29,005 nucleotides of DNA from a virus. Both the position numbers and the translations under genes were made by a program. The notes below the pieces were generated by a model. That model was not told the origin of the DNA. It worked only from the letters and a program-made list of their open reading frames with translations, and did not search any database. Shown in pieces: positions 3,401 to 22,196 of the stretch (its first letter is position 1; each line of letters starts with the position of its first letter). The stretch covers positions 1 through 29,005 of IMG/VR virus record IMGVR_UViG_3300037502_001013. One strand, given 5' to 3'.

Positions 3401-4061
3401 TTACACCAGTACAGACCAAGATGGTAACTTTAGGGTTGGTGAATTGTTCTTAGTTGAACAGGCCACAGGTATTGCTACGTTGAATGCTGATGCGTTCAAC
3501 TTATCAGGATTGAATCAACTACAACTTGGTGCAGTAGCACTTGGTGGCTCAGGTGTTGCTATTAGAGAGTTTTCAGCAGATCCGTTATTAACTGCTGATG
3601 CCAACGACATTGTACCAACACAACGAGCTGTCAAAACATTTGTTGAAAATATTATTGGTGCTGGTGGTTCTAATATCACTGCTAACTCAGTAACGTTAGG
3701 CGGTATGGAACTGCTGGGCAATCAAATCACTGCCACAGGTGCATTGAATTTGGTAATGACCACAATTGATCCAACAGCAATAATTGTATTCAATAGAATA
3801 CCAACAACATCTGTGGCACCAACATCTGGTACACATTTAACTAACAAAACTTATACTGATTATACATATGCCCCAACTATTCAAAATTTATCATTTGAAA
3901 AGAGCACAGGAAGAATTCAGTATCAAGAAGAACATGCAAGTACGGCCAATACTGTTACACATGTGTATGATTCAGATACCACAGTAACTCAAGCATATAT
4001 TGGTCAAGAAAGATCAAGTTTTTCAATCAATGCTGCGGGCCATTTGATAATTACTATGTAA
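465..4061 (+). CDS. Large tail fibre with six carbohydrate-binding-like repeats and a beta-helix
   Basis: A 1198-residue virion fibre. Residues about 11-300 hold six repeats of roughly 50 residues, each with a pattern W...Y..nD.V.Y.G..Y.c...HtS (starting near residues 11, 64, 112, 163, 213 and 262), resembling chitin-binding/CBM5_12-type modules. Near residue 369 a segment YYVAPNGTD, followed by a 'DRPWATIAYA' stretch and INIKTGSY, resembles the start of right-handed beta-helix (pectin-lyase-like) domains. Residues about 620-950 are beta repeats with GGEAYTSA and GGEGYNPA turns. The C-terminal third has DGNFRVGELF and a VPTQRAVKTFV segment that I associate with fibres of T4-like aquatic phages. 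Start chosen from AAGGAA seven bases before the ATG. Probable role: receptor contact or adhesion; which glycan is unknown. Confidence 0.85.
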   Translation: MAEFKIGRLRFVWRGLWTTGYAYVKDDVVRVGGSSYVCITGHTSQATFAADSIKWERMQEGIQFKNTWTTTTIYESNDIVVYGGIAYICTTAHTSTSTFDPTKFSAIVKGFDYKGAWSGSSVAYKLNDLVKYGANIYLCTTAHTSTASFVTDSGNWSLFVPGLEFEDSWSGATTYQRGDIVTYGGYSYVSLQNHINQVPSTATSYWDILTTGYKNEGIWNSIDTYEVGNVVQYGGNVYEAIADNSNTVPTNTGSWKLLVQGLNFLGSWSAGQSYKPGDVVNYGSSSYRVKVAHTSANSGAERPDLDISGVNYGLLSEGDSNYVTLNRGDLIARGASANYNLPIGSAGKVLKSDGTDPIWDYFGVRQKVYYVAPNGTDSVGYGETIDRPWATIAYACANVTGPATINIKTGSYAEALPISVPATVSLVGDELRTVTVTPASGYAATNMFYLRNGSNIRNITMSGLTSSLGAPLPSGTRRTSVSYISLDPGTGPTDNTVWITTKSPYVQNCTTFGTAVCGLKVDGTLHNGGNKSIVANDFTQIIDNGIGVWLNGGAKAELVSVFTYFCYIGYLTTNGGTIRGVNGNNSYGTYGAVSEDGDPTETPQTGTVNNRNNEAIVGNVICAGSQIVLLELLNGGEAYTSATALISGNGAGENITPVFTNGAISRVDITTEGTTHKTALNNAQTGTATSITLSVTDLTPTNAYNGMRITIIDGQGYGQTGIISAYNGGTKVATIVKEDTTPGWDHLIPTGVVETTLNETTRYRIEPRVSLTGGAAPTTPAKLRAVVEAGELIDIYIIDGGEGYNPASPPAIVITDPNATILGAATVSIKNGAISKFTYTNRGVSYTTATATITGDGYADILQTGGYLNVNGLSSAPRPGSNLSIAGDSITYRIVAFTNQTGSSPNISGRLQVSPVIATAPAQSTVVTITERYSNVRLTGHDFLNIGTGGVTTTNYPGTPSQPPAQANEVIEYGGGRVFYTSTDQDGNFRVGELFLVEQATGIATLNADAFNLSGLNQLQLGAVALGGSGVAIREFSADPLLTADANDIVPTQRAVKTFVENIIGAGGSNITANSVTLGGMELLGNQITATGALNLVMTTIDPTAIIVFNRIPTTSVAPTSGTHLTNKTYTDYTYAPTIQNLSFEKSTGRIQYQEEHASTANTVTHVYDSDTTVTQAYIGQERSSFSINAAGHLIITM

Positions 4062-4082: not shown

Positions 4083-6185
4083 ATGCCAACAACTGCACTA
4101 GGATCAACAAGATTTGTTAAACAAGGAGTTTACAGCGGCTCAGTAGCCTATTCTGTAGATGACGTAGTTTACTACAACGGTAAATGGTACTTATGTACCG
4201 CCGACGCAACAGCAGGAACACTGCCAACAGATATAACAAAATTTACTGTTTGGCAAAGTGCCTTTAATTGGAGAGGCAATCATAATAACACTGCCACAGC
4301 TTACAAAGTGGGCGATGTTGTTAGATATACAGTTAACTATACTACAGGATCAACGGGTTCTGGAACACATACTAGAACATCATCACAGGTGTTTATTTGT
4401 ATATTAGATCATACCAGTAACGGCACAACAACTTTTCTTCCTTTAAACGTAACATACTGGACTCCGATTAGCCTGCAGTCTTATCATGAAGGTTCAGTAA
4501 GTCTAGTAAATCAAAATGTAACACAGTCTTGGATGGCACAGGGTTCAGATCCTAGTAAGATTGTACAGTTTCCTGGTTACGGGCGAGTTGGTGAAACAGA
4601 AGCACCTTATCTAAAAGGCCTAAATCATTGTCATGCTATGACCTATGATCGTGGATCATTGATAACACAAAGTGGTCAATACAGATATTGGGGACTTGAC
4701 ACTAATAGTTCACAACCAAACAACTTTACTGTAGGACCACACTCAACCACAGCCAGCTTTTTCTTTAATGATTGGTTTAGATCGACTAGCAACAGCGGTG
4801 CAGGTGTACATTCAACACCAGACAATCAAATACCTAGACTAATACAGGTAGAACAGGGCTACGATTGGGCACTGCTTTTATTCAATAACGGAGAGTTATA
4901 TCACATAGGATATGGAGCACAAGGACAAAGTGGTGATAGAAGCAATAGTTCAAGACGTATAGCACGTCCTGGCGGCACATATTCTGAAACAGCATTGGCA
5001 ACTAATACCAGCACACACATTTTAAGAAATGCTAGAATTAAACGTATAGCAACATCAACTGATGAAAGAAACGCCAGCGTACACCACTGTGTGGCTTTGG
5101 ATGAGGACGGTAACGTTTACACTTGGGGATATAATGCCTACGGTCAACTAGGTGATAACAGTACCACAAATAGAAACATTCCTACGCTAATTCCCAAGGC
5201 ATTCTTTAACCTGCTATCAGGTGAAAAAGTTGTTGGCATTTGGGCTGGTGGTGGCGAATACGGATGGACTATGGCATTAACTGAAAAAAATCAGCTATAT
5301 GCATGGGGATATAACAACTACGGTCATTTAGGGCTAGGCACAACAAGCACAGGTGTATTAGTTCCTACAGAAGTTACCACGCAAACATGGACCACTGCTG
5401 GCGTAGGCACAATTAGAAAAATTGCTACATGCACAGGCGTAAGCACACAGTTTCAATCAACAGCAATTTTGACCAGTAAAGGTTCAATTTATGTTGCTGG
5501 ATATAATGCTGCTGGACAGTTTATGTTAGGTAACACCAGCCAACAAAACAGTTTTGTCGTAGTTACTTCAGGTCCGGGCGCTAGTGAAAGTGCAGAAGAT
5601 GTATGGATCACAGCAAGCCAGTTTGCAAGCATGTACGTAACTGATGTGGCTAGTAAAAAACTTTGGGCCTGCGGAGCAAATAATGTAGGCCAATTGGGTA
5701 TTCAAGGAACCAACACAAGCTATAATACAGCTCAAGAGTGCTACAGATCAATCAACAACGTAGAAACTGCACTAACTGGTGTTACTCGACTAACTGCTAT
5801 GGGTGGTAGTACTGGCGGTAATAATACATCCGTAGTAGTTTGTACTTCAGATGGTTGGAGCTATGCTGCAGGATACAATGGCTACGGACAATTAAGTCTA
5901 GGAAATACCAGTACTCAACACTATGGTTTTACTGATGGCAACGGTAAGGAATCCACAGGACAACGTGCTTTTACTATGGTAAAAATGCCACCAAGTCTAG
6001 CAGGTAAAGTGACGGATGTTTGCTTTATGGGATATTCTGACGGTTCTAGTACTAGCTATACTAGATGCTATTGGCTAGCTTCAGACGGACGGGTGTACGA
6101 GGCAGGATACAACAGTAGTTTCAGTGTAACAGGAACTGTTGCAGGTGATCATTATAACGTTATGCGACCAGTGATGTTAGGTTAA
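4083..6185 (+). CDS. RCC1-repeat beta-propeller fibre protein, paralogue 1
   Basis: A 700-residue protein. The N-terminus (residues 8-50) has the same W/Y-rich docking-like pattern as its neighbours (VYSGSVAYSVDDVVYYNGKW), with a second copy near residues 60-115. From about residue 265 onward there are seven RCC1-type repeats with cores such as HIGYGAQGQSG, TWGYNAYGQLG, AWGYNNYGHLG, VAGYNAAGQF, ACGANNVGQLG, AAGYNGYGQL and a degenerate last EAGYNSSF. Seven repeats is what a closed RCC1 beta-propeller needs. RCC1 propellers are protein- or ligand-binding platforms, so as a virion protein this is most likely a host-surface adhesin (inference). AAGGAAG at 4070-4076 supports the start. It begins 21 bases after the preceding fibre. 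Confidence 0.85.
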   Translation: MPTTALGSTRFVKQGVYSGSVAYSVDDVVYYNGKWYLCTADATAGTLPTDITKFTVWQSAFNWRGNHNNTATAYKVGDVVRYTVNYTTGSTGSGTHTRTSSQVFICILDHTSNGTTTFLPLNVTYWTPISLQSYHEGSVSLVNQNVTQSWMAQGSDPSKIVQFPGYGRVGETEAPYLKGLNHCHAMTYDRGSLITQSGQYRYWGLDTNSSQPNNFTVGPHSTTASFFFNDWFRSTSNSGAGVHSTPDNQIPRLIQVEQGYDWALLLFNNGELYHIGYGAQGQSGDRSNSSRRIARPGGTYSETALATNTSTHILRNARIKRIATSTDERNASVHHCVALDEDGNVYTWGYNAYGQLGDNSTTNRNIPTLIPKAFFNLLSGEKVVGIWAGGGEYGWTMALTEKNQLYAWGYNNYGHLGLGTTSTGVLVPTEVTTQTWTTAGVGTIRKIATCTGVSTQFQSTAILTSKGSIYVAGYNAAGQFMLGNTSQQNSFVVVTSGPGASESAEDVWITASQFASMYVTDVASKKLWACGANNVGQLGIQGTNTSYNTAQECYRSINNVETALTGVTRLTAMGGSTGGNNTSVVVCTSDGWSYAAGYNGYGQLSLGNTSTQHYGFTDGNGKESTGQRAFTMVKMPPSLAGKVTDVCFMGYSDGSSTSYTRCYWLASDGRVYEAGYNSSFSVTGTVAGDHYNVMRPVMLG

Positions 6186-6197
6186 AAGGAAAATAAA

Positions 6198-8591
6198 ATG
6201 GCAATATTAGATCTTGGTAAAGTAAAATTTTTATGGAAAGGTGATTGGGCTACTGGTACCAATTACGAAAAAGATGACATTGTTCATCATCAAGGTGAAG
6301 TATGGATATGTAAGCAGACACACTCCGCCAGTGTGAGTGGTGACGGTCTAAACAGACTAGCTCCTGGTAAACGATATCGTCAAAGTGCCTATGGTGTTAG
6401 TTTTGATCCTAATAAACCACCTGTAATTTATAATGTAACCAAAGTCGGTGGTAAGTTTTTTCTAAATGGTAGAATAAATCCTAACATCACTCTTGAAAAA
6501 GGTCATAGATATAGATTTTATGTTTATTCTAACTCAATGAACGGTGTTAATTTTAGATTTGCCACATCCACTGATGGTACCACATATACCACAGGCGTAA
6601 CAACTAGTGGAACCCCTGGAACCCCTGGCGCATATGTTGAAATCACTGTGCCTCTAGGTGCACCAAGCACACTATATTATAAACAAGATGGTACTACTGG
6701 TGTAGCAGACTCTGCTACAATCACGATCAGTTCTATATGGCAAGGTTGGCAGTATTGGGAAGAATTATCTTCTGGCTTTAGATGGACTGGTGCATGGAGC
6801 AATGCCACACAATATTATACTGACAACGTGGTTGTTTACGATGGTAATATGTATATTGCCACTTGCGACAATGTAGGTGAAATACCAGACATTGTTCAAG
6901 TCAGTAGAACTGCGACATTTAGTGACTGGACTGGACAACAAACTACTCAACGCAATAACTATTGTTGGGAACTGCTGTCAGGCAATCAAACTAAGAGAAG
7001 AAAAAACAACGCCATGTGGTTACCAAATCAAGGACCCATCAATTGGCCATACCTTCATAATGATGACACTGAGCCTGCAGTTTGGAGAAAATCTTACTAT
7101 ATTTCCAGTACTGGCAGAGTGTACGGACTAGGTTGGGGCACTGCCAGTAATCAAGGTTATAATACTAGTGGTTCGGGTAATAGTTTCTGGACCGAAATAC
7201 CGTTTAGATACTACGATTGGTATAAGAGCGCCGATGCAGTAAACTATGATGGTGGCATACAGCCAAGAATGGAAGAAGACTTTAAAATCAATGAAGGCTA
7301 CAATAGACTCTACAATAGAAGTGGTCGTCCACCAAAATGTATCCAGATTGAGATGACTTACGGAGCCACATATTTCTTATTTGACAACGGAGAATTATGG
7401 CACATTGGCCACAACGCTCAAGGCCAAGCTGGTATCGGCACCACCGGTAACAGAAATAGACCAACTCGTGTGCAAAACTTACACGACAGAAAGATTATCA
7501 AAGTCAGTTGCAGCAAAGGATCAGAAACCAACTCGTTTCATACAATTGCACTAGATGATGAAGGTGACGTATGGACTTGGGGATATAACGCTTATGGTCA
7601 GTGTGGACAGGGCACTTCTGTAAACATTTATAGTCCAAGACGTATCCCAAGAGAATGGTTGGGCGGTGAAGAAGTCATTGATATTCTTGCAGCAGGGCAC
7701 GAATATGGGTCTACATATATTAGAACCAAAGGCAACAATATCTATGCATGGGGCTACAATGGCTATGGACAGTTAGGCTGCGGCGACACAACAGATAGAT
7801 GGCGTCCAACTAGAATGACCGCATTCAATCCTATCACAAATGGTGGTATTAGAAAATTTGCTGCTGTGGGTCAAGGATCTTTATGTTCATTCCACTTGCT
7901 AGATGGTAACGGATACATGTGGCATACTGGCTATAACGGCTATGGTGTTGCTATTAACGGCAGCACCACAAACAATAACACTATTGCTCGAAGTACTACT
8001 GCACCAACTGCGGCTGCAACAGTTAATTTCTGGACCAGCGCACCTGCAAACTACAATATGCTATGGATGAGAATAACCAACGGCAACACCTATTTTGTAG
8101 GTTATAACGGCAGTAACTATATTGGTGGTATTGGTAACAATACTAGCCCAATTTCAACCCCCACACTGGTGTTTAATGTCACTAATGCTAAACGTGTGTT
8201 TGCTAGAGCCACGTACACAACTAACATTCGTGTCTATTGGTTGACTGATCGTGGTGAACTATGGTTCCAAGGTTATACTAACTACAGCTCACACGGAAAT
8301 GAATATGGTGGCAGTGGATCAAATGTTCAGGATGGTACCAATTATTATCCAGTTAGGATGGCTATTCCTTCCGGAACCAAGATCATTGACATGTTCATAA
8401 GTTGTGTGGACTCAAGTACAAACTATTTTGGATCTACTAACTATTTCTTATGTGACAATGGACAGATATATGGAAACGGATTTGCTGGTGCTAGTAGTGA
8501 TTTAAATAACTTTTTACTAGGTCATCAATATAATACATGGAACAGCGGAGTATTGTATCCTATGGATGTTACCAGAGGTTACGCAATTTAA
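6198..8591 (+). CDS. RCC1-repeat beta-propeller fibre protein with degenerate cupredoxin-like domain, paralogue 2
   Basis: A 797-residue protein, 12 bases after the previous gene. Residues 9-40 repeat the shared N-terminal module (FLWKGDWATGTNYEKDDIV). Residues about 74-178 form a beta domain with ITLEKGHRYRFYVYSNS and LYYKQDGTTG, laid out like cupredoxin-fold domains of marine phage proteins, but the Cys, His and Met copper ligands are absent. A second module of the first type follows (residues about 195-260). From about residue 310 come RCC1-type repeats, seven to eight by eye: LGWGTASNQG, HIGHNAQGQAG, TWGYNAYGQCG, AWGYNGYGQLG, HTGYNGYGV, VGYNGSNYIG, QGYTNYSSHG, GNGFAGASSD. Later repeats are eroded. 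Likely virion adhesin; receptor unknown. Confidence 0.85.
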   Translation: MAILDLGKVKFLWKGDWATGTNYEKDDIVHHQGEVWICKQTHSASVSGDGLNRLAPGKRYRQSAYGVSFDPNKPPVIYNVTKVGGKFFLNGRINPNITLEKGHRYRFYVYSNSMNGVNFRFATSTDGTTYTTGVTTSGTPGTPGAYVEITVPLGAPSTLYYKQDGTTGVADSATITISSIWQGWQYWEELSSGFRWTGAWSNATQYYTDNVVVYDGNMYIATCDNVGEIPDIVQVSRTATFSDWTGQQTTQRNNYCWELLSGNQTKRRKNNAMWLPNQGPINWPYLHNDDTEPAVWRKSYYISSTGRVYGLGWGTASNQGYNTSGSGNSFWTEIPFRYYDWYKSADAVNYDGGIQPRMEEDFKINEGYNRLYNRSGRPPKCIQIEMTYGATYFLFDNGELWHIGHNAQGQAGIGTTGNRNRPTRVQNLHDRKIIKVSCSKGSETNSFHTIALDDEGDVWTWGYNAYGQCGQGTSVNIYSPRRIPREWLGGEEVIDILAAGHEYGSTYIRTKGNNIYAWGYNGYGQLGCGDTTDRWRPTRMTAFNPITNGGIRKFAAVGQGSLCSFHLLDGNGYMWHTGYNGYGVAINGSTTNNNTIARSTTAPTAAATVNFWTSAPANYNMLWMRITNGNTYFVGYNGSNYIGGIGNNTSPISTPTLVFNVTNAKRVFARATYTTNIRVYWLTDRGELWFQGYTNYSSHGNEYGGSGSNVQDGTNYYPVRMAIPSGTKIIDMFISCVDSSTNYFGSTNYFLCDNGQIYGNGFAGASSDLNNFLLGHQYNTWNSGVLYPMDVTRGYAI
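7746..7771 (+). repeat. 26-bp exact repeat shared with the third propeller gene (copy 1)
   Basis: The bases coding for AWGYNGYGQ in propeller 2 are identical over 26 bases to 10076-10101 in propeller 3, then continue as agttagg against aattagg. The surrounding DNA has diverged, so this is a patch of identity at an RCC1 repeat core. Confidence 0.9.
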
Positions 8592-9046: not shown

Positions 9047-11206
9047 ATGAGTTCTATAGATATTTCTAAATTAAGAAATCGATGGATGGGAAAATGGAAC
9101 CCATCTGTTCGATATGAGACTAACGATGTGGTTCAATATCGAGGATCAAGTTATGTCTGTGTCAAAGACATTCCAGAAACACAGGTAGTGGTAGCTGACA
9201 CCGGTATTAGTACAAACTTTTATCAAAGCATTCCACCAACGCTGGTATTAAAATCTATAGAACCTACAGATCGCACATACTGGCTTGATATGGCTCCAGC
9301 AACGGCTTGGAAAGAAACTTGGACAGCCAGAACAACGTACACTCAAGGTGACGTAGTTGAATTAGGTGGTGATCTTTATATCTGTATACTAGGCGGAGTT
9401 AGAAACACTTATGTCACTGACTCTAGGTACTGGACTAAGATTTTTGAAAATGCTGACAGAGATCACCGATACATCTGCGCAGATTTCTTCAACCAGCAAC
9501 CGTTAGGTTGGACACGCAACCTTGGCGATGCATGGTGGGGAAGCGGTACACCAAGCTGGATGTTTGGCTTTGTTGGTTATGATGGTAACGCCTATGTAGG
9601 CGGAGGAAAATATCGTGGCGCAGGTATGGGCAACAGCTCAGCCAACAGTCTAAGCCAAACAGGCTGGGCAACTCCGGGATTCAGCTTTGTTGATTGGCTG
9701 GTAAGTAGTGATAAAGGTGGAGCCGGAACCATGACAACCCCAGATGGACAAACACCAAAAGTCATACAGTGGGCACACTGTGGTGGAGATTCTACCGGCA
9801 GCAGTGGCGGAAACAGTTTGTGGTTAATGAACAACGGTGAAGTCTATGCTTCAGGGTATAATGCACAAGGTCAATTAGGTATAGCGGCTGCTGATACCAC
9901 AACTCGTTGGTGGCCTACTAGAGTCAGCAACACAGCAACATTGGATTGGTTAGGTAATACCATCAGCAAGAGTTTTAATCAAACAAAAATGATTAAGGTT
10001 TGTATGACCAGTCAAGGATTTTGGAACCAAGGTGCAACCAGCTGCTTCTCATTAGGCGACGACGGCACAGTTTGGGCATGGGGCTACAATGGCTATGGAC
10101 AATTAGGACTGGGTCCAGAATCAACAGCTACCAATAGTGTTGGGCAAGCACAGACTGATCAATTTCAACCAAGACGTATTCCTCAGAGTTTCTTCGATCA
10201 CAAGAAAATCGTTGATATTATGGCACATGGTGGAATTTATGGTTGGGTGTTTGCTGTTGATGAAGACGGTTTCTTATGGACTTGGGGATTGAATATTCGC
10301 GGCGGCAGCGGCCTTGCAGATAGACACGCTGATACTGGCTATACACTTGGTCGGCAGTTTACTCCGGTACGTGTAAGCACAGATTGGAATAGACATGGTG
10401 GTATTAGAAAAATAATGATGAACGGTACAGCGGGTAACTGGGAACATACATTTATATTAGATGGTGAAGGTTATTTGTGGTTTGCTGGACAATATCAGCA
10501 AAATAACAGCACACAGATGTACGGTGTTACAGCATCAGGAACTACCACACAGACAACAACTAAATTTGTTAGATTAGATAAAAATTGGTTCTCTGAACAT
10601 AAAATTGATAATTTCTGGTTATGTGGTGGTGGCGAATTTAACGTAATTATCAGAGAAGCAGGTACTGGTTTAACTTATGTATTTGGTACTAACGAAGAAG
10701 GACAATTAGGACAGGCATCTAACCATAGATATGGTAGTTCGACTTGGACTCCATTCCCAACAGCAATCAGAGGCGTCAGATATGTTAAAGATGCTATCAT
10801 TCTAGACTCTGGCAAATCTAGTGCCACAACAATTATGATGTTGACTGATGATGGTGAAATATGGTGTCGAGGAACCAACAGCTATGGCGGTTTAGGTCTT
10901 GGTTTTGCAGGATCAACTACAATTCCGGGTGTTGAGGAAATTGAAGACAACGGTAGCCAAAACGAATATCATAAAATGCCACTACCTCCAGGATCAAAAG
11001 CTGAAGGAATCTGTGACTTTGGCAATGAGGGTTATGACGCTGTCATGGTTAGATTAGACAACGGCGGTGTTTACATCACTGGTTTTGACGGTACTGGAAC
11101 TGGCAGTCATATGATACAAGGGCACTTGAACGTGATCAGCTATAACAACAGAGTTGCTAACCCTGGTTCGTATCATTGGTATACATTGCATTCATACCCA
11201 GGTTAA
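9047..11206 (+). CDS. RCC1-repeat beta-propeller fibre protein, paralogue 3
   Basis: A 719-residue protein. Residues 6-40 carry the shared N-terminal module (RWMGKWNPSVRYETNDVVQY), with a second copy near residues 87-125 (WKETWTARTTYTQGDVVEL). From about residue 260 seven RCC1-type repeats can be picked out: ASGYNAQGQLG, AWGYNGYGQLG, TWGLNIRGGSG, FAGQYQQNN, VFGTNEEGQLG, CRGTNSYGGLG and a weak ITGFDGTGTG at the end, with a further glycine-rich partial one near residue 185. Repeats 3, 4 and 7 have diverged strongly. The start has AAAGG at 9033 upstream. It follows the small acidic gene by 15 bases and is very likely cotranscribed with the other two propellers. Probable receptor-binding or decorating virion protein. 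Confidence 0.85.
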   Translation: MSSIDISKLRNRWMGKWNPSVRYETNDVVQYRGSSYVCVKDIPETQVVVADTGISTNFYQSIPPTLVLKSIEPTDRTYWLDMAPATAWKETWTARTTYTQGDVVELGGDLYICILGGVRNTYVTDSRYWTKIFENADRDHRYICADFFNQQPLGWTRNLGDAWWGSGTPSWMFGFVGYDGNAYVGGGKYRGAGMGNSSANSLSQTGWATPGFSFVDWLVSSDKGGAGTMTTPDGQTPKVIQWAHCGGDSTGSSGGNSLWLMNNGEVYASGYNAQGQLGIAAADTTTRWWPTRVSNTATLDWLGNTISKSFNQTKMIKVCMTSQGFWNQGATSCFSLGDDGTVWAWGYNGYGQLGLGPESTATNSVGQAQTDQFQPRRIPQSFFDHKKIVDIMAHGGIYGWVFAVDEDGFLWTWGLNIRGGSGLADRHADTGYTLGRQFTPVRVSTDWNRHGGIRKIMMNGTAGNWEHTFILDGEGYLWFAGQYQQNNSTQMYGVTASGTTTQTTTKFVRLDKNWFSEHKIDNFWLCGGGEFNVIIREAGTGLTYVFGTNEEGQLGQASNHRYGSSTWTPFPTAIRGVRYVKDAIILDSGKSSATTIMMLTDDGEIWCRGTNSYGGLGLGFAGSTTIPGVEEIEDNGSQNEYHKMPLPPGSKAEGICDFGNEGYDAVMVRLDNGGVYITGFDGTGTGSHMIQGHLNVISYNNRVANPGSYHWYTLHSYPG
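10076..10101 (+). repeat. 26-bp exact repeat shared with the second propeller gene (copy 2)
   Basis: Second copy of the RCC1-core patch described at 7746-7771, 2.3 kb away in the same orientation. A less exact relative lies near 5869-5892 in the first propeller gene. Confidence 0.9.
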
Positions 11207-11220
11207 AATGAAGAAGGAAA

Positions 11221-14052
11221 ATGGCAAATAATCTATCATGGCTACCTGGAATACTCACTCAAGATGAAAGTGCCGTAAAGTTATTAGGCGGCACTAATCT
11301 TGCTTTCACAGGCATTGAAACCACTCTAGTAGATGGGCCGAATCTAAATGTGCTACATGATTTCAATGTAGATGCATTTGGTTCTGCCCATTATGTTATA
11401 CATGCCGAATGTGGTTCTGAACAACGTGAAACTTTAAATGTTTCAGTGGTAGCAAAACTAAACAAAGCATCTATAGTTGTCTATGGTCGTATAAACACAG
11501 GTGTTAATCTAGTTGATGTAAGTGCTGACATAACTGACAGTGTGTTGAAATTATATGCTACACCATCAGTTCCAGGACTGCAAAATGTAAAAGTAACAGC
11601 ATTTGCTACCCTAGCCGAAACAATAGTAGGTGAAAGCGCAAACGCCACAGTCTACTATTTTACAAAAGTCAACGGCACTCCAAAATTTACTTTAAATCTC
11701 GGCCCCTACACTAGCGATGTAGTGGCTCCGTCACTGACTTTTTATAAAGGTCTTGCTTATAGATTTGATCAAAGTGAAAGTTCAAATAGCGCAAATCCGT
11801 TTATTGTGGGCACTACAGCTAATGATGCTAACTCTGCATATACAGCAGGGATATCTTATTATCTAAATGGGGTCAAAGTACCACAGAGCGACTACACTAA
11901 TGTGCCGACATTTTCTGCAGCCACATCTAGATACATTGAAATCATAGTATCTGATACATATCCTGGAACATTATATTATTTTAGTTCAGCAACTGCTAAT
12001 TTAGGTAACACAATAACAGTAACGACACTAAGTGAAAGTGGTAGTACTGGTGGTGGCGGAGGTGGTGGCGGAGGTGGTGGCGGAGGTGGTCCAGTGACTT
12101 CTGGAGCCGCAGTTGATTTAAGCAATCTAGAACCTACATCAATTAACCAATCACTAATTCCCAATGTAACAAGTAGTTTAGATTTAGGCAGTGCTAGTAA
12201 CAGGTGGCGTGATTTATATCTAAGCGGAAACAGTATAATATTAGGTGGTGCAACAATCAGTGCTACAGGATCAGTTGTTAACTTGCCTGCTGGATCAACG
12301 ATTGCCGGAACACCCATAGGTGGCGGTGGAGGCGGTGGTGGAGGATCAAACAGTTTTACTACTGTAAGAGTTGATGGGCAATCTGATGTAGTCGCCGATT
12401 CTTCTACCGATATCTTAACACTAGTTGCTGGATCAAATATAACTCTAACCACAGACCCTTCTACTGATAGAGTAACTATTAGTTCTACTGGGGGCGGTGG
12501 TGGTGGGGGTAACGCATTTAGAAGAATCGACGTAGCTGGGCAAGCCTCAGTCTCAGCGGACCAAATTGAAGATATTTTAACATTGGTCGCAGGCCCAAAT
12601 GTATCCATAACTACAAATGCGGCCACAGACACCATTACAATTAGTGCTACTAGCGGAGGTGGCGGGCCTTCCGGAGTTAGCTCAGGTGTTGCCAATCGAC
12701 TGGCTTATTATGCATCATCCGGATCAGTAGTACAAGACACTGGAAATGGTCTAACATGGAACGGACAGTTCTTACAAATTTTAGGAACACTATATACTAC
12801 AGGTGCTAAGAGCTATCTAAGAGCATATTGGGATACTTTAAATGATTTAAACATAGAAGCACCTCCTGTGACTTGGAGAGGAATGGTAGCAGTTGCTGGC
12901 GACACAGGAAAATTATACTATGCTAACGCCGGAACTTGGAATCGACTGGCTAATTTTAGTGATATCCCGACCAATGCAAATGGATATGGCAGGATACAAG
13001 TCGATGGTCAAACAACCATAACCTCAGATGCTCCAAACGATCTTCTAACATTTAATGCCGGTGTGGGCATGACCATTACCACAAACCCAGATACAAACAC
13101 TGTGACGTTTACATCAAGTGGCGGCGGCGGCGGTGGCGGTATTACTGTAGAAGATGCACAAGATGCTGCTGCAAGTTTGTTCACTAGTGGTACACATAAT
13201 GGCATAACTTTTGTTTATAATGATGCATCAAATAGTATCAACGCTACTGTGACCGCAAGTGCTGGAATTTATACTGACGAACAGGCCCGTGATGCCGCAG
13301 GTTCTTTGTTTTCAACTGGAACACATTCTGGAATTAACTTTGTCTATGATGACGACAACAACAGAATAAATGCCACAGTAAGTTTTCCAACACCTTATAA
13401 TGATGAAAATGCTCAAGATGCCGCAGCATCTATGATTACCAATGGTAGTCATACTGGCATTTCATTCACATATCAGGATGCATCTAATAGAATAGACGCT
13501 GCTGTATCTAGTGAGTACATTCAGGATCAAGCAGCATCGTTGTTTACTGCTGGAACACATTCAGGAATCAGTTTCAGTTACGATGATAATAATAATCGTA
13601 TGAATGTGTCTGTAACTGGTGGTGGCGTAACACAATTTTCTAACTTAACAGATGCAAGCACAGCAACGTTGACTGTGGACAAAATTTATCTACCTGCCAT
13701 AACTATGCTTAATGTTACCAACAACGGCGCAAGTAGTTATAGGTTTGATCAATACGGTACTGCAGATAATCCCACTATATATGCGTTGAATGGTGCTACT
13801 GTAGCATTTAATTTGAATGTAGCAGGCCACCCATTCCTTATACGTACATCGGGAGGATCTAATTACAATGATGGCCTAGTACATGTGTCAACTACTGGAA
13901 CAGTCACTACCGGCAGTTCAGCGCAAGGTCAAACTTCGGGTACACTCTATTGGAAGATACCTCAATCTATCAGTGGTAACTACCAGTATATTTGTGGTAT
14001 TCACAGTGGGATGGTAGGTGTGATTTCAGTAAAAGACATAGCTGCGATATAA
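11221..14052 (+). CDS. Modular tail fibre with poly-glycine linkers and C-terminal cupredoxin-like domain
   Basis: A 943-residue fibre. Residues about 152-278 are a cupredoxin-like beta domain without copper ligands. A 14-glycine linker follows (residues 277-290), then SLDLGSASNRWRDLYLSG, a motif common in phage fibres. Three repeats of about 50 residues (VDGQ...DILTLVAGSNITLTT... ) are separated by runs of 9, 7, 4 and 7 glycines. Four repeats of the type AQDAAASLFTSGTHNGITF then occupy residues about 640-800. The last about 110 residues form a second cupredoxin-like domain with GHPF (His870) and YICGIHSGM (Cys925, His928, Met931), matching the His-Cys-His-Met ligand order of type-1 copper proteins. 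The AAGGA Shine-Dalgarno is unusually close to the ATG (2-3 bases). Likely virion adhesin; copper binding is an inference. Confidence 0.85.
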   Translation: MANNLSWLPGILTQDESAVKLLGGTNLAFTGIETTLVDGPNLNVLHDFNVDAFGSAHYVIHAECGSEQRETLNVSVVAKLNKASIVVYGRINTGVNLVDVSADITDSVLKLYATPSVPGLQNVKVTAFATLAETIVGESANATVYYFTKVNGTPKFTLNLGPYTSDVVAPSLTFYKGLAYRFDQSESSNSANPFIVGTTANDANSAYTAGISYYLNGVKVPQSDYTNVPTFSAATSRYIEIIVSDTYPGTLYYFSSATANLGNTITVTTLSESGSTGGGGGGGGGGGGGGPVTSGAAVDLSNLEPTSINQSLIPNVTSSLDLGSASNRWRDLYLSGNSIILGGATISATGSVVNLPAGSTIAGTPIGGGGGGGGGSNSFTTVRVDGQSDVVADSSTDILTLVAGSNITLTTDPSTDRVTISSTGGGGGGGNAFRRIDVAGQASVSADQIEDILTLVAGPNVSITTNAATDTITISATSGGGGPSGVSSGVANRLAYYASSGSVVQDTGNGLTWNGQFLQILGTLYTTGAKSYLRAYWDTLNDLNIEAPPVTWRGMVAVAGDTGKLYYANAGTWNRLANFSDIPTNANGYGRIQVDGQTTITSDAPNDLLTFNAGVGMTITTNPDTNTVTFTSSGGGGGGGITVEDAQDAAASLFTSGTHNGITFVYNDASNSINATVTASAGIYTDEQARDAAGSLFSTGTHSGINFVYDDDNNRINATVSFPTPYNDENAQDAAASMITNGSHTGISFTYQDASNRIDAAVSSEYIQDQAASLFTAGTHSGISFSYDDNNNRMNVSVTGGGVTQFSNLTDASTATLTVDKIYLPAITMLNVTNNGASSYRFDQYGTADNPTIYALNGATVAFNLNVAGHPFLIRTSGGSNYNDGLVHVSTTGTVTTGSSAQGQTSGTLYWKIPQSISGNYQYICGIHSGMVGVISVKDIAAI
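12049..12090 (+). repeat. Tandem 12-bp repeat encoding a 14-glycine linker
   Basis: Three perfect copies of GGTGGTGGCGGA followed by GGTGGT, in frame, give 14 consecutive glycine codons. Shorter in-frame glycine-codon runs lie at 12319-12345 (9 codons), 12490-12510 (7), 12655-12666 (4) and 13120-13140 (7) in the same gene. The perfect repeat unit means copy number can change by slippage without breaking the frame. Confidence 0.95.
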
Positions 14053-14870: not shown

Positions 14871-17800
14871 ATGGCAAAAAAACGAATTCAACAATACATT
14901 TTTGTTCCGGGAGTTTCAGGTAACAGTAATGCGTACCCCAACGCCTACGACTTGATCACTGCAAATAAGGAATTTATCAAAGACGAAGCATCTAAATGGA
15001 TCGATCAACAGATCATAACTGACTCTGCTGTTAACTTATTTCCCAACGCCGTAACACTGCTAACAAACAACAAAGAATTTTTAAAAGAAGAAATCACAGC
15101 TTGGATCGGACAACAAACCAGCATTGGCATTGCACCATTTGGCGGGTATACTTACGATGCTGCAAAATGTAAAAGAGACGTTGGCTATGTAATTGATGCA
15201 TATATTAATGATATAAGATTTGGTGGTAATGAAAAAACTATCGAAGTTGTGTCGTTATATTGGGTGGGATCTATCCCACAAGTTGACGGGGACAGAGCAC
15301 CAGAAGTTGCAGCCCATGTTAAATTACGTGATATTATTAATAACTATATCTTTACAAGAACCCTTTATCCAACAATTCAAGGCACAGCAATTCAGAATGT
15401 TTCAGGTTCAAATGCTGAAGTAGGTGCATCAACACGAATCACCGTGTTGTCTACTATTGTAACTGATGTAATCGATCAAGGTCTTGATGTATTACCGGCA
15501 CTATCATACGGCGCAACATTTGCCAACTATACATATAATAATGCCAAATGTGAAAGAGACATTGGGTATGTTTTAGATGCATATCTTTGGGATTTGAGAT
15601 ATGGCGGCAATAGAAATACGAGGAAGATTGCAGGTTATTACTGGATTGGCGGCGCTCCTCAGATTGACGGTGATAGAACGCCTGAGGTAGCCACACATAA
15701 TTTTATAAGAGATTTAATCAATAACTATATTATTAAAAACCTTGCATATGCAAGTCTTCAATCCCCAGTAGTAACTACTCAGACTATAAATCTAGCAAAG
15801 CCATTTGAAACTGGAGCTGACACTAGAATCACATATCTTTCTGGATTACTCACTACGGTAATTCAAGGTGGTCTTGATGTAATGCCAGCACTTATTAGCG
15901 GCGCAGCACTTTGCTATGTTCAAGGTAAATGGACTCTAGATCAATTATTGATTATTACCAATGTAACACATAATGAAATATTATACAACTTTGCTGACCC
16001 AGCAACAGGTGTAACACAGGTCTACGCAGACCCGACGACCCCAGACAATGACACTGAAATTGAGTATGGTTTTACCGGTTTTGTCCTAGCTAAAGATACA
16101 ACTTCAATGTCTGCAACAGACCAAATACAAATATTTGTTGAAGATTATTTAGAATTAAAAGTCAGACCTTACGATTTTGGTACGGATGCTATTGAAAGGC
16201 AGCGTGTGGCTACAGCACAGTCTATGCTTGATGCTGACTTTGAATACGGACTACAGCCAACTAAATGGCAGGCAATTTCTCTTGCAAGAAGCTATCCAAG
16301 TGTCTATGAAATTCCAGGAACAGATACCGCAGTAGTTACTATAACAACAGATGCAAGTGCTACAACTGGTGGTACTGGCCAAAGTTTAATTACAGTAACA
16401 ACTGTTGGTGCTCATGGATTGACTCCAGGAGTACCGTTCATAATCAGAGCGTTAAACACAAATTTAAGCGGCTTCAGTAGAGCCGAAGGTGTGTTTCTTG
16501 TTAATTCAACACCGAGTTCTACGCAGTTCACGTATTTTGCTAAAGCCAAAGTCGGCAGCGTGGCAGGATCACAACTTCAAGAAACTTACACATTAATTCG
16601 TCGAGGTCAATTTTACACAGGCGCTAGTGTCGGTACGCCGACATTTAGCGTTTTTAGTCAAGGTGCAAGCGGATCATTTTTACCGGCATTAAATGTTCCT
16701 TCTGGAAGCACAGTAATTCCCTATGCAGGATCAATTCCACCTAACGGTGCCCCAGTAACTAATGTTACCTCTATAAACCCAGGAACACAGATAACTGCTG
16801 TCACTGGTACTGGGTCTACTGATACTGAGTCATATACTGGTCTAACTGGCATTAACGTATCTGGTATCGGTGTAGGAGCAGAATTTACTGTTGACAGAAC
16901 ATCTGGAGTATACTCAGTGACTGTGACTACTGCGGGAACTGACTATGAAGTAGGTGATCAGATAGTTATTTACGGAACATCTTTAGACGGCACGTCACCT
17001 GGAAACGACTTACTGATCACCGTGGCCACGATTACTGGTGTAGGAACAACGGGACCCATAGCCACAGTAACATCTTCTGGATCTGGTGTTGCATCCGGTG
17101 TAACTGCATCACAGACAATTTTAGAAACTGGAAATGTTGGGACATCAACTCTAGTGTTTTCAGATACTACCGGAATCATTCCAGGATTGGCAATGAATAG
17201 AGGTGACGGCACTGCCACAATTGTCACAGATGTTTCTGGAACTACAGTAACCATTTCTAGACCACTAACTACTGCAATTTCTGGTTCAACTGATGACTTC
17301 CCAAATCTAGCCCCAACACCAATAGTAGGCACTGGCACCAGTGCTCAATTAACTATCACAAGAACTGGAACATCATATAGCGTTACTGCAATCACAAATG
17401 CAGGCACTGGATATCGTGTCGGAGACACATTGTTTGTTTCAGGTTCAAGTTTAGGTGGTAGTTCACCAACAAATGACGCATATGTTGTTGTGTCAGCAAT
17501 CACTGGTCCTGGCCCAACAGGCCCCATCGGATCTGCTACGGTCACTGGTATAGGTATTGATTCTAATACTTACACAGGTGTCGCCGCAATAAATTTAAGT
17601 GGTCTAGGATCTGATGCTACTTTTAATGTAACTCGAAATGGCGCAAATTATAATGTAACCATACAAGATGGTGGTACTGGTTATGTACTTGGTGACAAAA
17701 TTAGAATTTTAGGCACAAGTTTAGGTGGTGCAACACCGGCTAATGACTTAACTATCACAGTTACAGAGATATTAGCTGGTGTTATTGTTAACACAACAAG

Positions 17801-20800
17801 TTCAGGCACTGGTGCATTGGGGTCAGCATCTTATCCAGAACCAGATATTGATTCTTCGGCTGTAATTTTGGATGCTGATGGGGCACAGTTTAGTGTTTCT
17901 AGATCAGGCCCAATCTATTCAACAACATTAGTTAACGGCGGGTCAACAAGAAGAACAGCCAAGACTACTAATGGTGTAGGCATTGACTATAGCACATCAA
18001 TCAAAAAATATGGATCTGCAAGTTTGATCGTAAACAATGCGCTACATCCAACGGCAGCATCACAATATGTGACTTTTGCCAGTAGTTCAGATTTTGCGTT
18101 CGGCACTGGTGATTTCACTATTGAGTTTTGGTTTAGACGAACTTCCGGAAGCCAGTTTCAAACACTATTTGATATGAGGTCTTCTGCAGCCACAGAAGTG
18201 GCGTTGACTTTGGGATTAAACACAACAAATCAGCCATATTTGTTTATCAACGGCGCTATAAGGATTCAAAGTACATCTGCACTACTAGCAGATACATTTC
18301 AACACATAGAAATAGCTCGAGTTTCCGGAGTTACTAGATTATTTGTAGATGGATCTCAGGTTGGAACAGATTACACTGACAGTAATAATTACGGATCTAA
18401 ACCTATTAGAATCGGTGCAGACTACAACTTTGCCTATGGTGTTGATGGTTATTTTGATGACTTTAGAGTATCAAAGGGATTGGGTAGACACTCGTCAACA
18501 TTTACAGCACCAGCAGAAGAACTACAACCTGATTCAAGCACAGTACTTTTATTGAACATGAATACTTCTCCTGGTTCAGTTACTGTGAGCGACGACGTCG
18601 GTGGATATAAAATTGGAAATCAAATTATAATTCGAGGAACAGAATTAGGCGGCGCAACTCCGGCCAATGACCTAACTATCACAGTATCAGGTGCTACCTT
18701 AGGAGTCATATCCGCAATTTCAACATCTGGTACAGCCCTAGATCAGCAGTCATTCTCAGCCGTGTCAGGAACTAATATTACTGGACAAGGATCTTCAGCA
18801 GCATTTGCCATAAGTAGATCAGGCACTTCTTATGTTTCTGTGTTAAACACAACTCCAGGCACTGGATACACTGTCGGTGATAGGCTAAAGATTGCTGGCA
18901 CATCAGTTGGCGGTGCAACCCCAGCCAATGACATAACCTTAGAAGTATTAACTATTGGCGGTTCTGGTGAAATTGGATCAATATCTATATTATCAGGAAC
19001 AGCACTGTCTTCAACCCAAGCATATACGTCTCTGGCACCAACAAATGTTGAAACTAGAGGTACAGGACTTGTTATAAGTGTACATAAGGAATCTGGCAGT
19101 TATAGTATTAACGAAATTCAAGGATCACCGATCGGTGGGGACAATTATTCATTAGGCCAACGATTTACAATCACTGGTGACAACTTGGGTGGATCATTTG
19201 GCACTAATAACGCTACTATCACAATTACAGGAATTGACACCAGCGGTTCAGTAACAACTGTGTCTATCACAGGTACAGCAGCTGGCGGAAGCTCAGTAGA
19301 TTTCTTTTCAACTGTTACGATATCAGAACCCACAATTAGTGTGTTGGCCACTACATCGGTTATCACTTTCTCTGCAATCGCCAAGATCCAAGTAGATTTT
19401 TTAACTCCCCACGGGTTTGTTCCTGGTATGGGACTGCTAGTTAATATAACATCTGCAAGTTTAAATCAAAACTTAGCTGCTGGATCATTCTTTGTTGAAG
19501 AAGTGCCTACACCGACTAGAATTAGGTATACTGCTAGATCTGTCGGCAATGTCACACCATCTGGATTAGCTGGCATTGTTTATACAAGAGCAGATACTTT
19601 CTTTAGCCACAGACCGTTCGACGGTGGTGTACAGTTAGGTACTGGCGGTCCGCAGCATGGATCACAAGCCATACGTATGAGCAAGAATTACATTCGTTAT
19701 CAATCAGGTAAAGGCTTAATGTACACTACTGGTGCGCTATTTGCCCCAAGCTACGATATTTTAAGAGCAAGCTCTACAGGTGTTGGTGCAGGTTCTGTTA
19801 TAACATTTGTCACAGATGATGTAGATCATGGCTTACAAGCGGGCGCAGACGTAAGAATTATTGGTATTGAAACCGTTGGATATAATGGTACATATACTGT
19901 TGCAAGTATTATTGATGAACGAACATTTACAATTATTGCTACACAAGGACTGGGATCTACCACAGCCACGTTAAGCAATCAAGCTCAAGTATCTATGTTC
20001 CAATGGAGTGGTGCAACTGTACGTGCTGGTTGCTTTGACGATCAAAATGGAATGTATTGGCAATATAACGGACAACGTATTGCTGTAGGCGTAAGATCGG
20101 CAACATTCCAGATTGCAGGTAGCGTTACAGCGACCCCTAACAGCAATACGATTACTGGTAGTGATACTAGATTTAGAGATCAATTAAAGGCTGGTGATAA
20201 GATTGTTATTCGAGGAATGACTCATACTGTAACATCGGTAGAGTCACAGACTTTATTATATGTTGCTCCTGACTATAGGGGTGCAAATACTAGTACTAAA
20301 GTTAAACTATGTAAGATTGACGATCGATTATTTTATCAGGATTCGTGGAATAGGGACAGTGCTGACGGCACAGGACCAAGCGGATACAATATTGACGTTA
20401 CAAAGATGCAGATGATCGGAATCCAGTACACATGGTATGGTGCTGGTTTTATCGACTTCATGTTAAGGGGCAAAGAAGGCGATTTCTTGTTTGTACACAG
20501 AATTAGAAACAATAACGTAAACACAGAAGCATTTATGCGTTCAGCTAACTTACCTGTTAGATATGAAGTTGTCAATGATGGTGCAGTGGCAAGATTATCT
20601 AGCAATATTACTGCATCATCAACATCTGTTCCTTTAGATAGTACCGAGGATTTTCCGGATACAGGCACCGTATACATAGATAATGAACTTATTTCTTACA
20701 CCAGTAAAACATCGTCATCGCTCACTGGATTAACAAGGGCTGCAACTATGCAACAGTTTGCAGCAGGATCATTAAGATCCTATACTGCGGGCTCGGCAGC

Positions 20801-21746
20801 AAGTCACAATGAAAGAACTGGAGTAGTATTAGTTGGTAATAGAACAAGTCCAGTGATTAGTCATTGGGGTAGTGCTTATCTAACAGATGGCGGATTTGAT
20901 GCTGACCGAGGCTATTTGTTTAACTATCAGGCCACATCATTTGTAGCATCAACAACACGTGCCACAGCGTTCTTAATTAGGTTGGCTCCAAGCGTCTCAA
21001 ACGCCATCGTTGGCGATTTAGGCGATAGAGAGTTAATCAACAGAGCGCAGTTACTATTGCAGGGCATTGAAGTTACTGCAGGTAGTGGTAGTGCATCTGG
21101 TATCGTTGTTGAAGGCGTATTGAACCCAAGTAACTATCCCCAAGATCCGACGCTAATTGAGTGGAGAACCTTAGCCAACCCAGCGTTAGGTGGATTGCCC
21201 AGCTTTGCACAGGTAGCACTCGGCAGCTCAGTAACTTGGGATAATACATTTACTGTGACTTTTGCTGCGTTTAGTGTATTGGGTCCGTATAATAGAACCT
21301 ACTTCCTACGATTCCTTGCTACGGAAACCACTAACGTAAGACCTGGTATGATTGTTAGCTCACCAACCCCAGCGGTTCAAGCATTGATTCCTGGTGGTAT
21401 GACCGTGACTGGATTAAGTGGCATATTTAATATCGGTGGCACAAACTACAGAGAAGTTTATTTCAACAGAAACTTCCTAGGTAACGTTACTAACGGATCA
21501 GAATTTTCATTTAGCTCATTGGCTAGCTATGCTGCCCCAGGTGAAGCAATTTTCTCATTCGTTGGATTACCTAACGCACAGACACAACTTGATCTAAGAC
21601 CACTGAAAGAGATTACTAATACTGCTATTGGTGGTAGGGGAATGTATCCAAACGGTCCAGATGTGTTGGCAATTAACTGCTTCTTAACTGGTGGATCAAC
21701 ACAAGAAGTCAGTATTGTGTTACGTTGGAGTGAGGCGCAGGCCTAA
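14871..21746 (+). CDS. Giant tail fibre with tandem repeats and an inserted LamG-like domain
   Basis: A 2291-residue protein, the largest in the window. Two copies of an N-terminal module with KC(K/E)RD(V/I)GYV(I/L)DAY lie near residues 93-220 and 221-350. From about residue 640 to 1510 there are at least six repeats centred on GY.vGd...i.GtslGGatPaNDl.i.v. Between residues about 1034 and 1233 a LamG/concanavalin-like domain interrupts one repeat: SIKKYGSASL, GDFTIEFWFRR, TRLFVDGSQVG and GYFDDFRVSKG are typical strands. Residues about 1620-2291 contain YWQYNGQRIAVGVRSATFQ, YQDSWNRDSADGTGPSGYN and QYTWYGAGFIDFMLRG, features I recall from large structural proteins of T4-like aquatic phages. AGGA lies upstream of the ATG. 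The gene ends directly against the convergent NUDIX gene. Confidence 0.85.
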   Translation: MAKKRIQQYIFVPGVSGNSNAYPNAYDLITANKEFIKDEASKWIDQQIITDSAVNLFPNAVTLLTNNKEFLKEEITAWIGQQTSIGIAPFGGYTYDAAKCKRDVGYVIDAYINDIRFGGNEKTIEVVSLYWVGSIPQVDGDRAPEVAAHVKLRDIINNYIFTRTLYPTIQGTAIQNVSGSNAEVGASTRITVLSTIVTDVIDQGLDVLPALSYGATFANYTYNNAKCERDIGYVLDAYLWDLRYGGNRNTRKIAGYYWIGGAPQIDGDRTPEVATHNFIRDLINNYIIKNLAYASLQSPVVTTQTINLAKPFETGADTRITYLSGLLTTVIQGGLDVMPALISGAALCYVQGKWTLDQLLIITNVTHNEILYNFADPATGVTQVYADPTTPDNDTEIEYGFTGFVLAKDTTSMSATDQIQIFVEDYLELKVRPYDFGTDAIERQRVATAQSMLDADFEYGLQPTKWQAISLARSYPSVYEIPGTDTAVVTITTDASATTGGTGQSLITVTTVGAHGLTPGVPFIIRALNTNLSGFSRAEGVFLVNSTPSSTQFTYFAKAKVGSVAGSQLQETYTLIRRGQFYTGASVGTPTFSVFSQGASGSFLPALNVPSGSTVIPYAGSIPPNGAPVTNVTSINPGTQITAVTGTGSTDTESYTGLTGINVSGIGVGAEFTVDRTSGVYSVTVTTAGTDYEVGDQIVIYGTSLDGTSPGNDLLITVATITGVGTTGPIATVTSSGSGVASGVTASQTILETGNVGTSTLVFSDTTGIIPGLAMNRGDGTATIVTDVSGTTVTISRPLTTAISGSTDDFPNLAPTPIVGTGTSAQLTITRTGTSYSVTAITNAGTGYRVGDTLFVSGSSLGGSSPTNDAYVVVSAITGPGPTGPIGSATVTGIGIDSNTYTGVAAINLSGLGSDATFNVTRNGANYNVTIQDGGTGYVLGDKIRILGTSLGGATPANDLTITVTEILAGVIVNTTSSGTGALGSASYPEPDIDSSAVILDADGAQFSVSRSGPIYSTTLVNGGSTRRTAKTTNGVGIDYSTSIKKYGSASLIVNNALHPTAASQYVTFASSSDFAFGTGDFTIEFWFRRTSGSQFQTLFDMRSSAATEVALTLGLNTTNQPYLFINGAIRIQSTSALLADTFQHIEIARVSGVTRLFVDGSQVGTDYTDSNNYGSKPIRIGADYNFAYGVDGYFDDFRVSKGLGRHSSTFTAPAEELQPDSSTVLLLNMNTSPGSVTVSDDVGGYKIGNQIIIRGTELGGATPANDLTITVSGATLGVISAISTSGTALDQQSFSAVSGTNITGQGSSAAFAISRSGTSYVSVLNTTPGTGYTVGDRLKIAGTSVGGATPANDITLEVLTIGGSGEIGSISILSGTALSSTQAYTSLAPTNVETRGTGLVISVHKESGSYSINEIQGSPIGGDNYSLGQRFTITGDNLGGSFGTNNATITITGIDTSGSVTTVSITGTAAGGSSVDFFSTVTISEPTISVLATTSVITFSAIAKIQVDFLTPHGFVPGMGLLVNITSASLNQNLAAGSFFVEEVPTPTRIRYTARSVGNVTPSGLAGIVYTRADTFFSHRPFDGGVQLGTGGPQHGSQAIRMSKNYIRYQSGKGLMYTTGALFAPSYDILRASSTGVGAGSVITFVTDDVDHGLQAGADVRIIGIETVGYNGTYTVASIIDERTFTIIATQGLGSTTATLSNQAQVSMFQWSGATVRAGCFDDQNGMYWQYNGQRIAVGVRSATFQIAGSVTATPNSNTITGSDTRFRDQLKAGDKIVIRGMTHTVTSVESQTLLYVAPDYRGANTSTKVKLCKIDDRLFYQDSWNRDSADGTGPSGYNIDVTKMQMIGIQYTWYGAGFIDFMLRGKEGDFLFVHRIRNNNVNTEAFMRSANLPVRYEVVNDGAVARLSSNITASSTSVPLDSTEDFPDTGTVYIDNELISYTSKTSSSLTGLTRAATMQQFAAGSLRSYTAGSAASHNERTGVVLVGNRTSPVISHWGSAYLTDGGFDADRGYLFNYQATSFVASTTRATAFLIRLAPSVSNAIVGDLGDRELINRAQLLLQGIEVTAGSGSASGIVVEGVLNPSNYPQDPTLIEWRTLANPALGGLPSFAQVALGSSVTWDNTFTVTFAAFSVLGPYNRTYFLRFLATETTNVRPGMIVSSPTPAVQALIPGGMTVTGLSGIFNIGGTNYREVYFNRNFLGNVTNGSEFSFSSLASYAAPGEAIFSFVGLPNAQTQLDLRPLKEITNTAIGGRGMYPNGPDVLAINCFLTGGSTQEVSIVLRWSEAQA

Positions 21747-21756
21747 TCAAATTAGG
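21742..21756. terminator. Candidate bidirectional hairpin at the stop-to-stop junction
   Basis: CCTAAT (21742-21747) and ATTAGG (21751-21756) form a perfect 6-bp inverted repeat around a CAA loop. The hairpin contains the fibre stop TAA (21744-21746) and the NUDIX stop (21747-21749, - strand). No U-run follows on either strand, so a classical intrinsic terminator is not shown; it may only stabilise the 3' ends. Confidence 0.35.
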
Positions 21757-22196
21757 GTCACAACATCAAATATTGTTTGAAGTTTGGCCCTAACTGTCTT
21801 ATTTCCAAAACTACTGCGAAGGCCTTGATGTAACGGCTTTGGCGCAGTGTCTATATTACACCAACACCATCCGTTGTGCTCGCTGCTGAGTTTTGGTATG
21901 AACTCGTTGTCTACAACACACAAATATGTGTGGAAATTAAAGACGTTATCGTTGCTGACAAATGTTTCTAATGGAACTGATTTAATAATAGTAGGAATAT
22001 CACCGATTTCTTCCTGCATTTCTCTCTGAAGTCCCTGCCATGAATTTTCTCCAAGATCATTAGTGCCGCCCACTAGTCCCCAGTGACCTGAATGTTTACC
22101 AGTGGCTTTTTGCAGAAGTAAGATGCGTCCAGAAGATTTAGAATAAAAAATTGCACCACTACATACTATTCGATCTTTTATAGTTCTAATCTCCAT
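21747..22196 (-). CDS. NUDIX hydrolase
   Basis: A 149-residue protein with a complete NUDIX box: G44-x5-E50-x7-R58-E59-M60-x-E62-E63-I64-G65, in the GGTNDLGENSWQGLQREMQEE segment. The E residues bind the divalent metal used to hydrolyse a nucleoside diphosphate linked to a moiety X; the substrate cannot be told from the box (oxidised dNTP, NADH, ADP-ribose or RNA cap are all possible). Length is typical of MutT-like proteins. Its ATG overlaps the 3' end of the gp15 gene by 19 bases, with AGAGGAA just upstream inside gp15, so it is translationally coupled to tail-completion genes. It ends stop-to-stop with the giant fibre gene. Confidence 0.93.
   Translation of the reverse strand: MEIRTIKDRIVCSGAIFYSKSSGRILLLQKATGKHSGHWGLVGGTNDLGENSWQGLQREMQEEIGDIPTIIKSVPLETFVSNDNVFNFHTYLCVVDNEFIPKLSSEHNGWCWCNIDTAPKPLHQGLRSSFGNKTVRAKLQTIFDVVTLI

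Follow-up and report, generated by a model that had tools for sequence, protein, structure and literature searches.

Does the tail protein of a T4-like phage end in a copper-binding domain, and what would such a domain do in a virion? The question is raised by a 943-aa protein whose gene lies within a cluster of tail genes on a T4-like phage fragment; this fragment, the whole stretch of 29,005 bases of a virus record that was analysed, is referred to as the window. An earlier note had proposed that the protein ends in a cupredoxin with an apparent, complete type-1 copper site formed by His870, Cys925, His928 and Met931. It would be unusual to find copper in a phage tail, and we found no description of copper or a cupredoxin in phages in the literature searched, which covered few subscription journals.

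The tail protein and its candidate copper site

Neighbouring genes have matches to families of tail fibre, baseplate, tail sheath stabiliser and head-tail adaptor proteins. The features of the protein that bear on the question are as follows.

11221..14052, + strand: 943-aa tail protein (open reading frame); over its last 290 aa it matches phrog_677, 'baseplate wedge tail fiber protein connector'
13138..13620, + strand: repeat stem preceding the cupredoxin domain, about residues 640-800 (approximate boundaries, read from the sequence)
13678..14049, + strand: C-terminal cupredoxin domain, residues 820-943, core 851-938 (AlphaFold2, Foldseek against PDB, HMM)
13828..13830, + strand: His870 codon, candidate copper ligand 1, in an H-P-F motif; invariant (72/72 homologues)
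13993..13995, + strand: Cys925 codon, candidate copper ligand 2; invariant (72/72), the sole Cys of the domain
14002..14004, + strand: His928 codon, candidate copper ligand 3; invariant (72/72)
14011..14013, + strand: Met931 codon, candidate axial ligand; invariant (72/72)

The phrog_677 match takes in the C-terminal domain (E 5.4e-37; residues 655-940 on profile positions 139-411 of 412), and a Pfam search with the full 943-aa protein gave nothing useful. The stem consists of four 'DAAxSLFTxGTHxGIxFxYDDxxNxxxATV' repeats. All four candidate ligands lie at the positions that had been claimed, with the His870 codon beginning at 13828. The cupredoxin itself was borne out by fold and profiles, with its extent refined to about 124 aa (residues 820-943), wider than first proposed.

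The predicted arrangement is that of a type-1 site, with an N-terminal His, and Cys, His and Met on the loop preceding the last strand. The C-x2-H-x2-M pattern occurs once in the window's open reading frames of at least 110 aa, where composition predicts 0.015 occurrences, and shuffling the 943-aa protein 2000 times never produced it. Cys925 is one of two Cys in the entire protein. A disulfide role for it within the domain was ruled out, as there is no second Cys there, and we counted this lone conserved Cys in favour of a copper site.

Megablast of the window against phages gave no matches. The best query-spanning matches of the tail sheath stabiliser were to jumbo Pseudomonas phages of the PA5oct type (34% identity), and psbA was absent from all 12 related contigs in which it was sought; the host thus need not be a cyanobacterium. 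The sheath stabiliser gene (22178-23809, - strand) adjoins a NUDIX hydrolase gene (21747-22196, - strand), a pair that seems to be present also in PA5oct-like Pseudomonas phages. The tail cluster also holds three adjacent open reading frames for RCC1-repeat (beta-propeller) proteins (Pfam RCC1; 4083-6185, 6198-8591 and 9047-11206), two of which have an N-terminal CBM_5_12 carbohydrate-binding module. A 1198-aa tail fibre protein (465-4061) has five CBM_5_12 stretches, and a 2291-aa virion protein (14871-21746) combines a Laminin_G_3 domain (ConA-like lectin) with a weak match to an endosialidase beta-barrel.

Predicted fold and kinship with cupredoxins

Residues 820-943 were modelled with AlphaFold2 from an alignment of 27 sequences (A1), giving a pLDDT of 94.5 and a pTM of 0.88. 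The predicted structure is the Greek-key beta-sandwich of cupredoxins. In this model Cys925 (model residue 106) closes strand 100-106, His928 and Met931 (109 and 112) lie in a loop directly followed by the last strand (113-119), and His870 (51) stands just ahead of strand 53-57. Foldseek returned 111 PDB matches at E<=1e-3, and among the 50 listed all were cupredoxin, CuA or multicopper-enzyme folds. The best were AcoP (1.4e-5), rusticyanin, two-domain laccases, plastocyanin and amicyanin, with a probability of 1.00 to cupredoxins. TM-scores were moderate, at about 0.45-0.58, as expected of a distant relative.

Profile comparisons led to the same families. All ten matches of the A1 profile to PDB sequences were cupredoxins (E 0.06-1.3), as were 43 of the 44 obtained with a profile of six divergent copies (A3), the top one being copper nitrite reductase at 4.5e-5. 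In hhalign, comparison with an alignment of amicyanin-family proteins from plasmids gave P 2.5e-6, with Cys, His and Met in register, and the profile of 231 phage copies gave P 1.1e-7 against the same family. Against Pfam Copper-bind (PF00127) the window domain alone scored 13.9 bits, under the cut-off of 21.2, and 20 of 27 homologues gave weak matches; a search for Copper-bind across the record itself found nothing over threshold. By contrast, the domain of a Bacteroidota homologue (L284) passes that cut-off with 31.1 bits. The phage profile recovers L284 at 1e-24; it recognises five relatives from cells, none scoring worse than 2e-23. Since a Bacteroidota domain passes Pfam and the phage profile recognises the cellular relatives, the chain of homology is closed without appeal to the motif alone. 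The only phmmer match of the single domain against PDB, LpqN, was rejected as spurious.

The likeness to amicyanin (Paracoccus, mau cluster) extends over the C-x2-H-x2-M loop, the Y-x-C strand before it and the last strand after it. The amicyanins compared have H-N at the first ligand where the window domain has H-P, and their context is that of mau and methylamine dehydrogenase genes rather than tail genes. The window domain had no match to the amicyanin equivalog TIGR02657 and fell far below the cut-off of the NCBIfam plastocyanin model. Multicopper oxidases and small laccases are further Foldseek neighbours. The type-1 site of multicopper oxidases likewise has its first ligand in an HP(F) motif; the window domain differs from these enzymes in being a single domain without the His pairs of type-2/3 copper.

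The expectations of the earlier note fared accordingly. Structure prediction and comparison with amicyanin and plastocyanin gave the cupredoxin fold it had foreseen, at high model confidence and with cupredoxins as nearest neighbours. The profile search for cupredoxins that it suggested gave matches in PDB (A1 and A3); the domain alone stayed under the Pfam cut-off. Its assignment to the amicyanin type holds for the loop, which aligns to real amicyanins, and fails at the first ligand and at the NCBIfam equivalog cut-offs.

Conservation, loss and spread of the site

A set of 72 distinct close homologues, gathered in many cases with search patterns containing none of the four residues, retained all four ligands without exception, indicating that the site is not a product of chance. 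The positions between Cys, His and Met each take seven or eight different residues in the same set, so that free variation is found around the ligands and not at them, as the earlier note's reading needs. Identity of the domain among homologues is about 57-77%, making it the best-conserved part of the protein, with a variable stem. We consider it almost certain that residues 820-943 form a cupredoxin whose candidate type-1 copper site is intact.

In a wider set, obtained by iterating a profile over 265 loci (285 distinct copies from viral contigs), 232 copies kept the four ligands. The Cys-His pair was lost in 52, nearly always together with the other ligands, and a single copy had His, Cys and His with Met missing. 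The ligand site is thus retained or lost as a unit. The first ligand is followed by Pro (H-P) in 223 of the 232 ligand-bearing copies, and the domain is internal in 124 of them.

Two ligand-less relatives of the domain are encoded in the window itself.

11728..12021, + strand: ligand-less cupredoxin paralogue in the same 943-aa protein, residues 170-267, NPF...YYFSSATANLG (HMM E 1e-7)
6480..6683, + strand: weak cupredoxin-like segment, also without the ligands, in the adjacent 797-aa open reading frame, residues 95-162 (same HMM, E 3e-4)

The HMM used here was built solely from ligand-bearing copies of other phages. Residues 170-267 scored 31 bits against it, and 2000 shuffled versions never scored more than 10 bits. 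As single-sequence AlphaFold2 gave a pLDDT of 33.7, the cupredoxin fold assigned to this segment is one that homology predicts. A viral scan for this copy found one relative only, at a contig edge; three relatives carry ligands in both copies. The presence of a ligand-less paralogue in the same protein was also counted in favour of the copper site. Two cupredoxins per chain are found, too, in baseplate proteins of the Syn9 gp103 type (L105 8328-12488) and homologues such as L106 3319-6312, with a ligand-bearing domain at about 374-465 and a ligand-less one at about 582-676.

Searches beyond the window showed the domain to be widespread. With the P-SSM2 copy, tblastn matched 353 phage records, nearly all of Synechococcus and Prochlorococcus phages, and reached small podovirus-sized genomes (P-SCSP2, P-GSP1); outside the cyanophages it matched a few Pelagibacter phages and one Actinomycetia phage. 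The Syn9 copy matched 338 phage records. For scale, the Syn9 gp8-like baseplate protein, counted separately from the domain carriers, is found in 473 records. Among the annotated matches listed, carriers are mostly 'baseplate wedge tail fiber connector' proteins, the others being tail fibres, proximal fibres and protease-annotated proteins. IMG/VR holds at least 583 confirmed relatives, found with two patterns, and a search of plasmids for the domain found none.

Syn9 gp102 (YP_717769.1), a gp9/gp10-like connector, shares with the window protein the phrog_677-type annotation, the C-terminal place of the domain and the HPF...C-x2-H-x2-M set, and differs in its length (406 aa) and stem, at about 33% identity. 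In the records consulted, neither protein carries a copper-site annotation. In P-SSM2 the domain is internal and flanked by collagen-like stretches. S-TIM4 gp9 also carries it. When cyanophage S-TIM4 was evolved experimentally on new hosts, the mutated proteins prominently included those of the tail fibre and baseplate; gp9 is not named among them in the text consulted (PMC6224464).

A genome scan with a single-sequence query gave 17 cellular loci, mostly in Bacteroidota, several with a lipoprotein-like N-terminus. The HPF-type domain in these surface proteins of Bacteroidota and other bacteria (L273-L289) is mostly C-terminal. The Bacteroidota lipoproteins (Marivirga, L273; uncultured Bacteroidetes, L284) have the same motif set as the phage domain but are cellular and apparently lipid-anchored rather than part of a virion. 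The P-SSM2 and Marivirga copies are 70% identical, which suggests exchange of the domain between phages and bacteria; the window copy is more distant. Our searches show by sequence that the domain is a mobile module, found both in bacterial surface lipoproteins and in T4-like phages, especially cyanophages, where tail and baseplate proteins carry it. Automatic superfamily annotation in databases may already mark some of these proteins. What appears to be new, judging from sequence and model, is a cupredoxin serving as a virion module.

Possible roles of a copper domain in the virion

We think it probable that the domain carries copper in the virion. On balance, the explanation we favour is that an intact-site cupredoxin is used as a mobile tail module and acts as a copper-stapled, rigid adhesion or assembly module. 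A role chiefly in structure or adhesion, as opposed to redox chemistry, is put forward tentatively. The domain would be synthesised copper-free in the copper-poor cytosol and would take up copper after release of the virion. Since type-1 sites have a high affinity for copper and free copper is almost absent from the cytosol, loading is most likely to follow release. The metal would bridge the loop of His870 and the one bearing Cys, His and Met, locking the beta-sandwich and ending the fibre stem in a rigid, protease-resistant module. The earlier note had placed the domain at the tip of the tail fibre. A tip that determines specificity now seems less likely, and a rigid adhesive or structural module is preferred to a hypervariable tip: no other part of the protein is as well conserved, and about half of the viral copies of the domain lie inside their protein.

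A chance motif in a fibre domain that is no cupredoxin is scarcely credible: it draws on the sub-threshold Pfam score of the domain alone and is already contradicted by the agreement of fold, profile and conservation evidence and by the absence of the motif from shuffled sequences. That the domain is simply a structural beta-sandwich, with a site left over as a relic or binding some other metal by accident (zinc, silver, or Cu(I) only), deserves more weight but remains unlikely. Copies without ligands are evidently tolerated, so the fold does serve as a metal-free scaffold. However, the four residues are invariant in ligand-bearing copies whilst their neighbours are free to vary, and loss is all-or-none rather than piecemeal.

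Two further proposals give the copper an active part. In one, Cu(II)/Cu(I) cycling would report the redox state of the cell surface and trigger attachment, or the site would take electrons from a surface reductase. All residues of a type-1 electron-transfer site are kept, the nearest PDB folds are electron-transfer proteins, and adsorption of cyanophages has been described as light-dependent (PMC9229316, citing Jia 2010). Against this, no partner protein is known, and the relatives in Pelagibacter and Actinomycetia phages and in Bacteroidota lipoproteins, together with the lack of psbA in the 12 contigs, indicate no special link to photosynthesis; we regard such a device as improbable. Equally improbable, in our judgement, is copper-mediated adhesion, in which a copper-binding surface protein of the host would recognise virion copper, analogous to the 'Ferrojan horse' idea for iron. 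The domain does occur in tail and baseplate proteins, but type-1 copper is buried and four-coordinate, and a conserved, often internal domain is unlike a specificity tip. Metal in fibre tips has a precedent in the iron HxH sites of T4 gp37, and alterophage R22Y also has iron HxH sites in a tail fibre (PMC11705849), although those hold octahedral iron through paired His and the window domain has a type-1 copper fold.

If copper is bound as the favoured explanation holds, a large share of cultured cyanophages would bear copper proteins on their attachment apparatus. Copper would join iron in phage tails, and virions, though a minor copper ligand, would be a widespread one in water. A bolder extension, which we consider improbable, is that the baseplates and fibres of cyanophages and related T4-like phages bear working type-1 copper centres that pick up their metal from the water once the cell has lysed; the redox state of this copper would gate attachment and connect infection with light, redox chemistry or the supply of copper. 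With copper bound, cyanophage attachment would be open to direct testing, Syn9 and P-SSM2 being described phages with known hosts.
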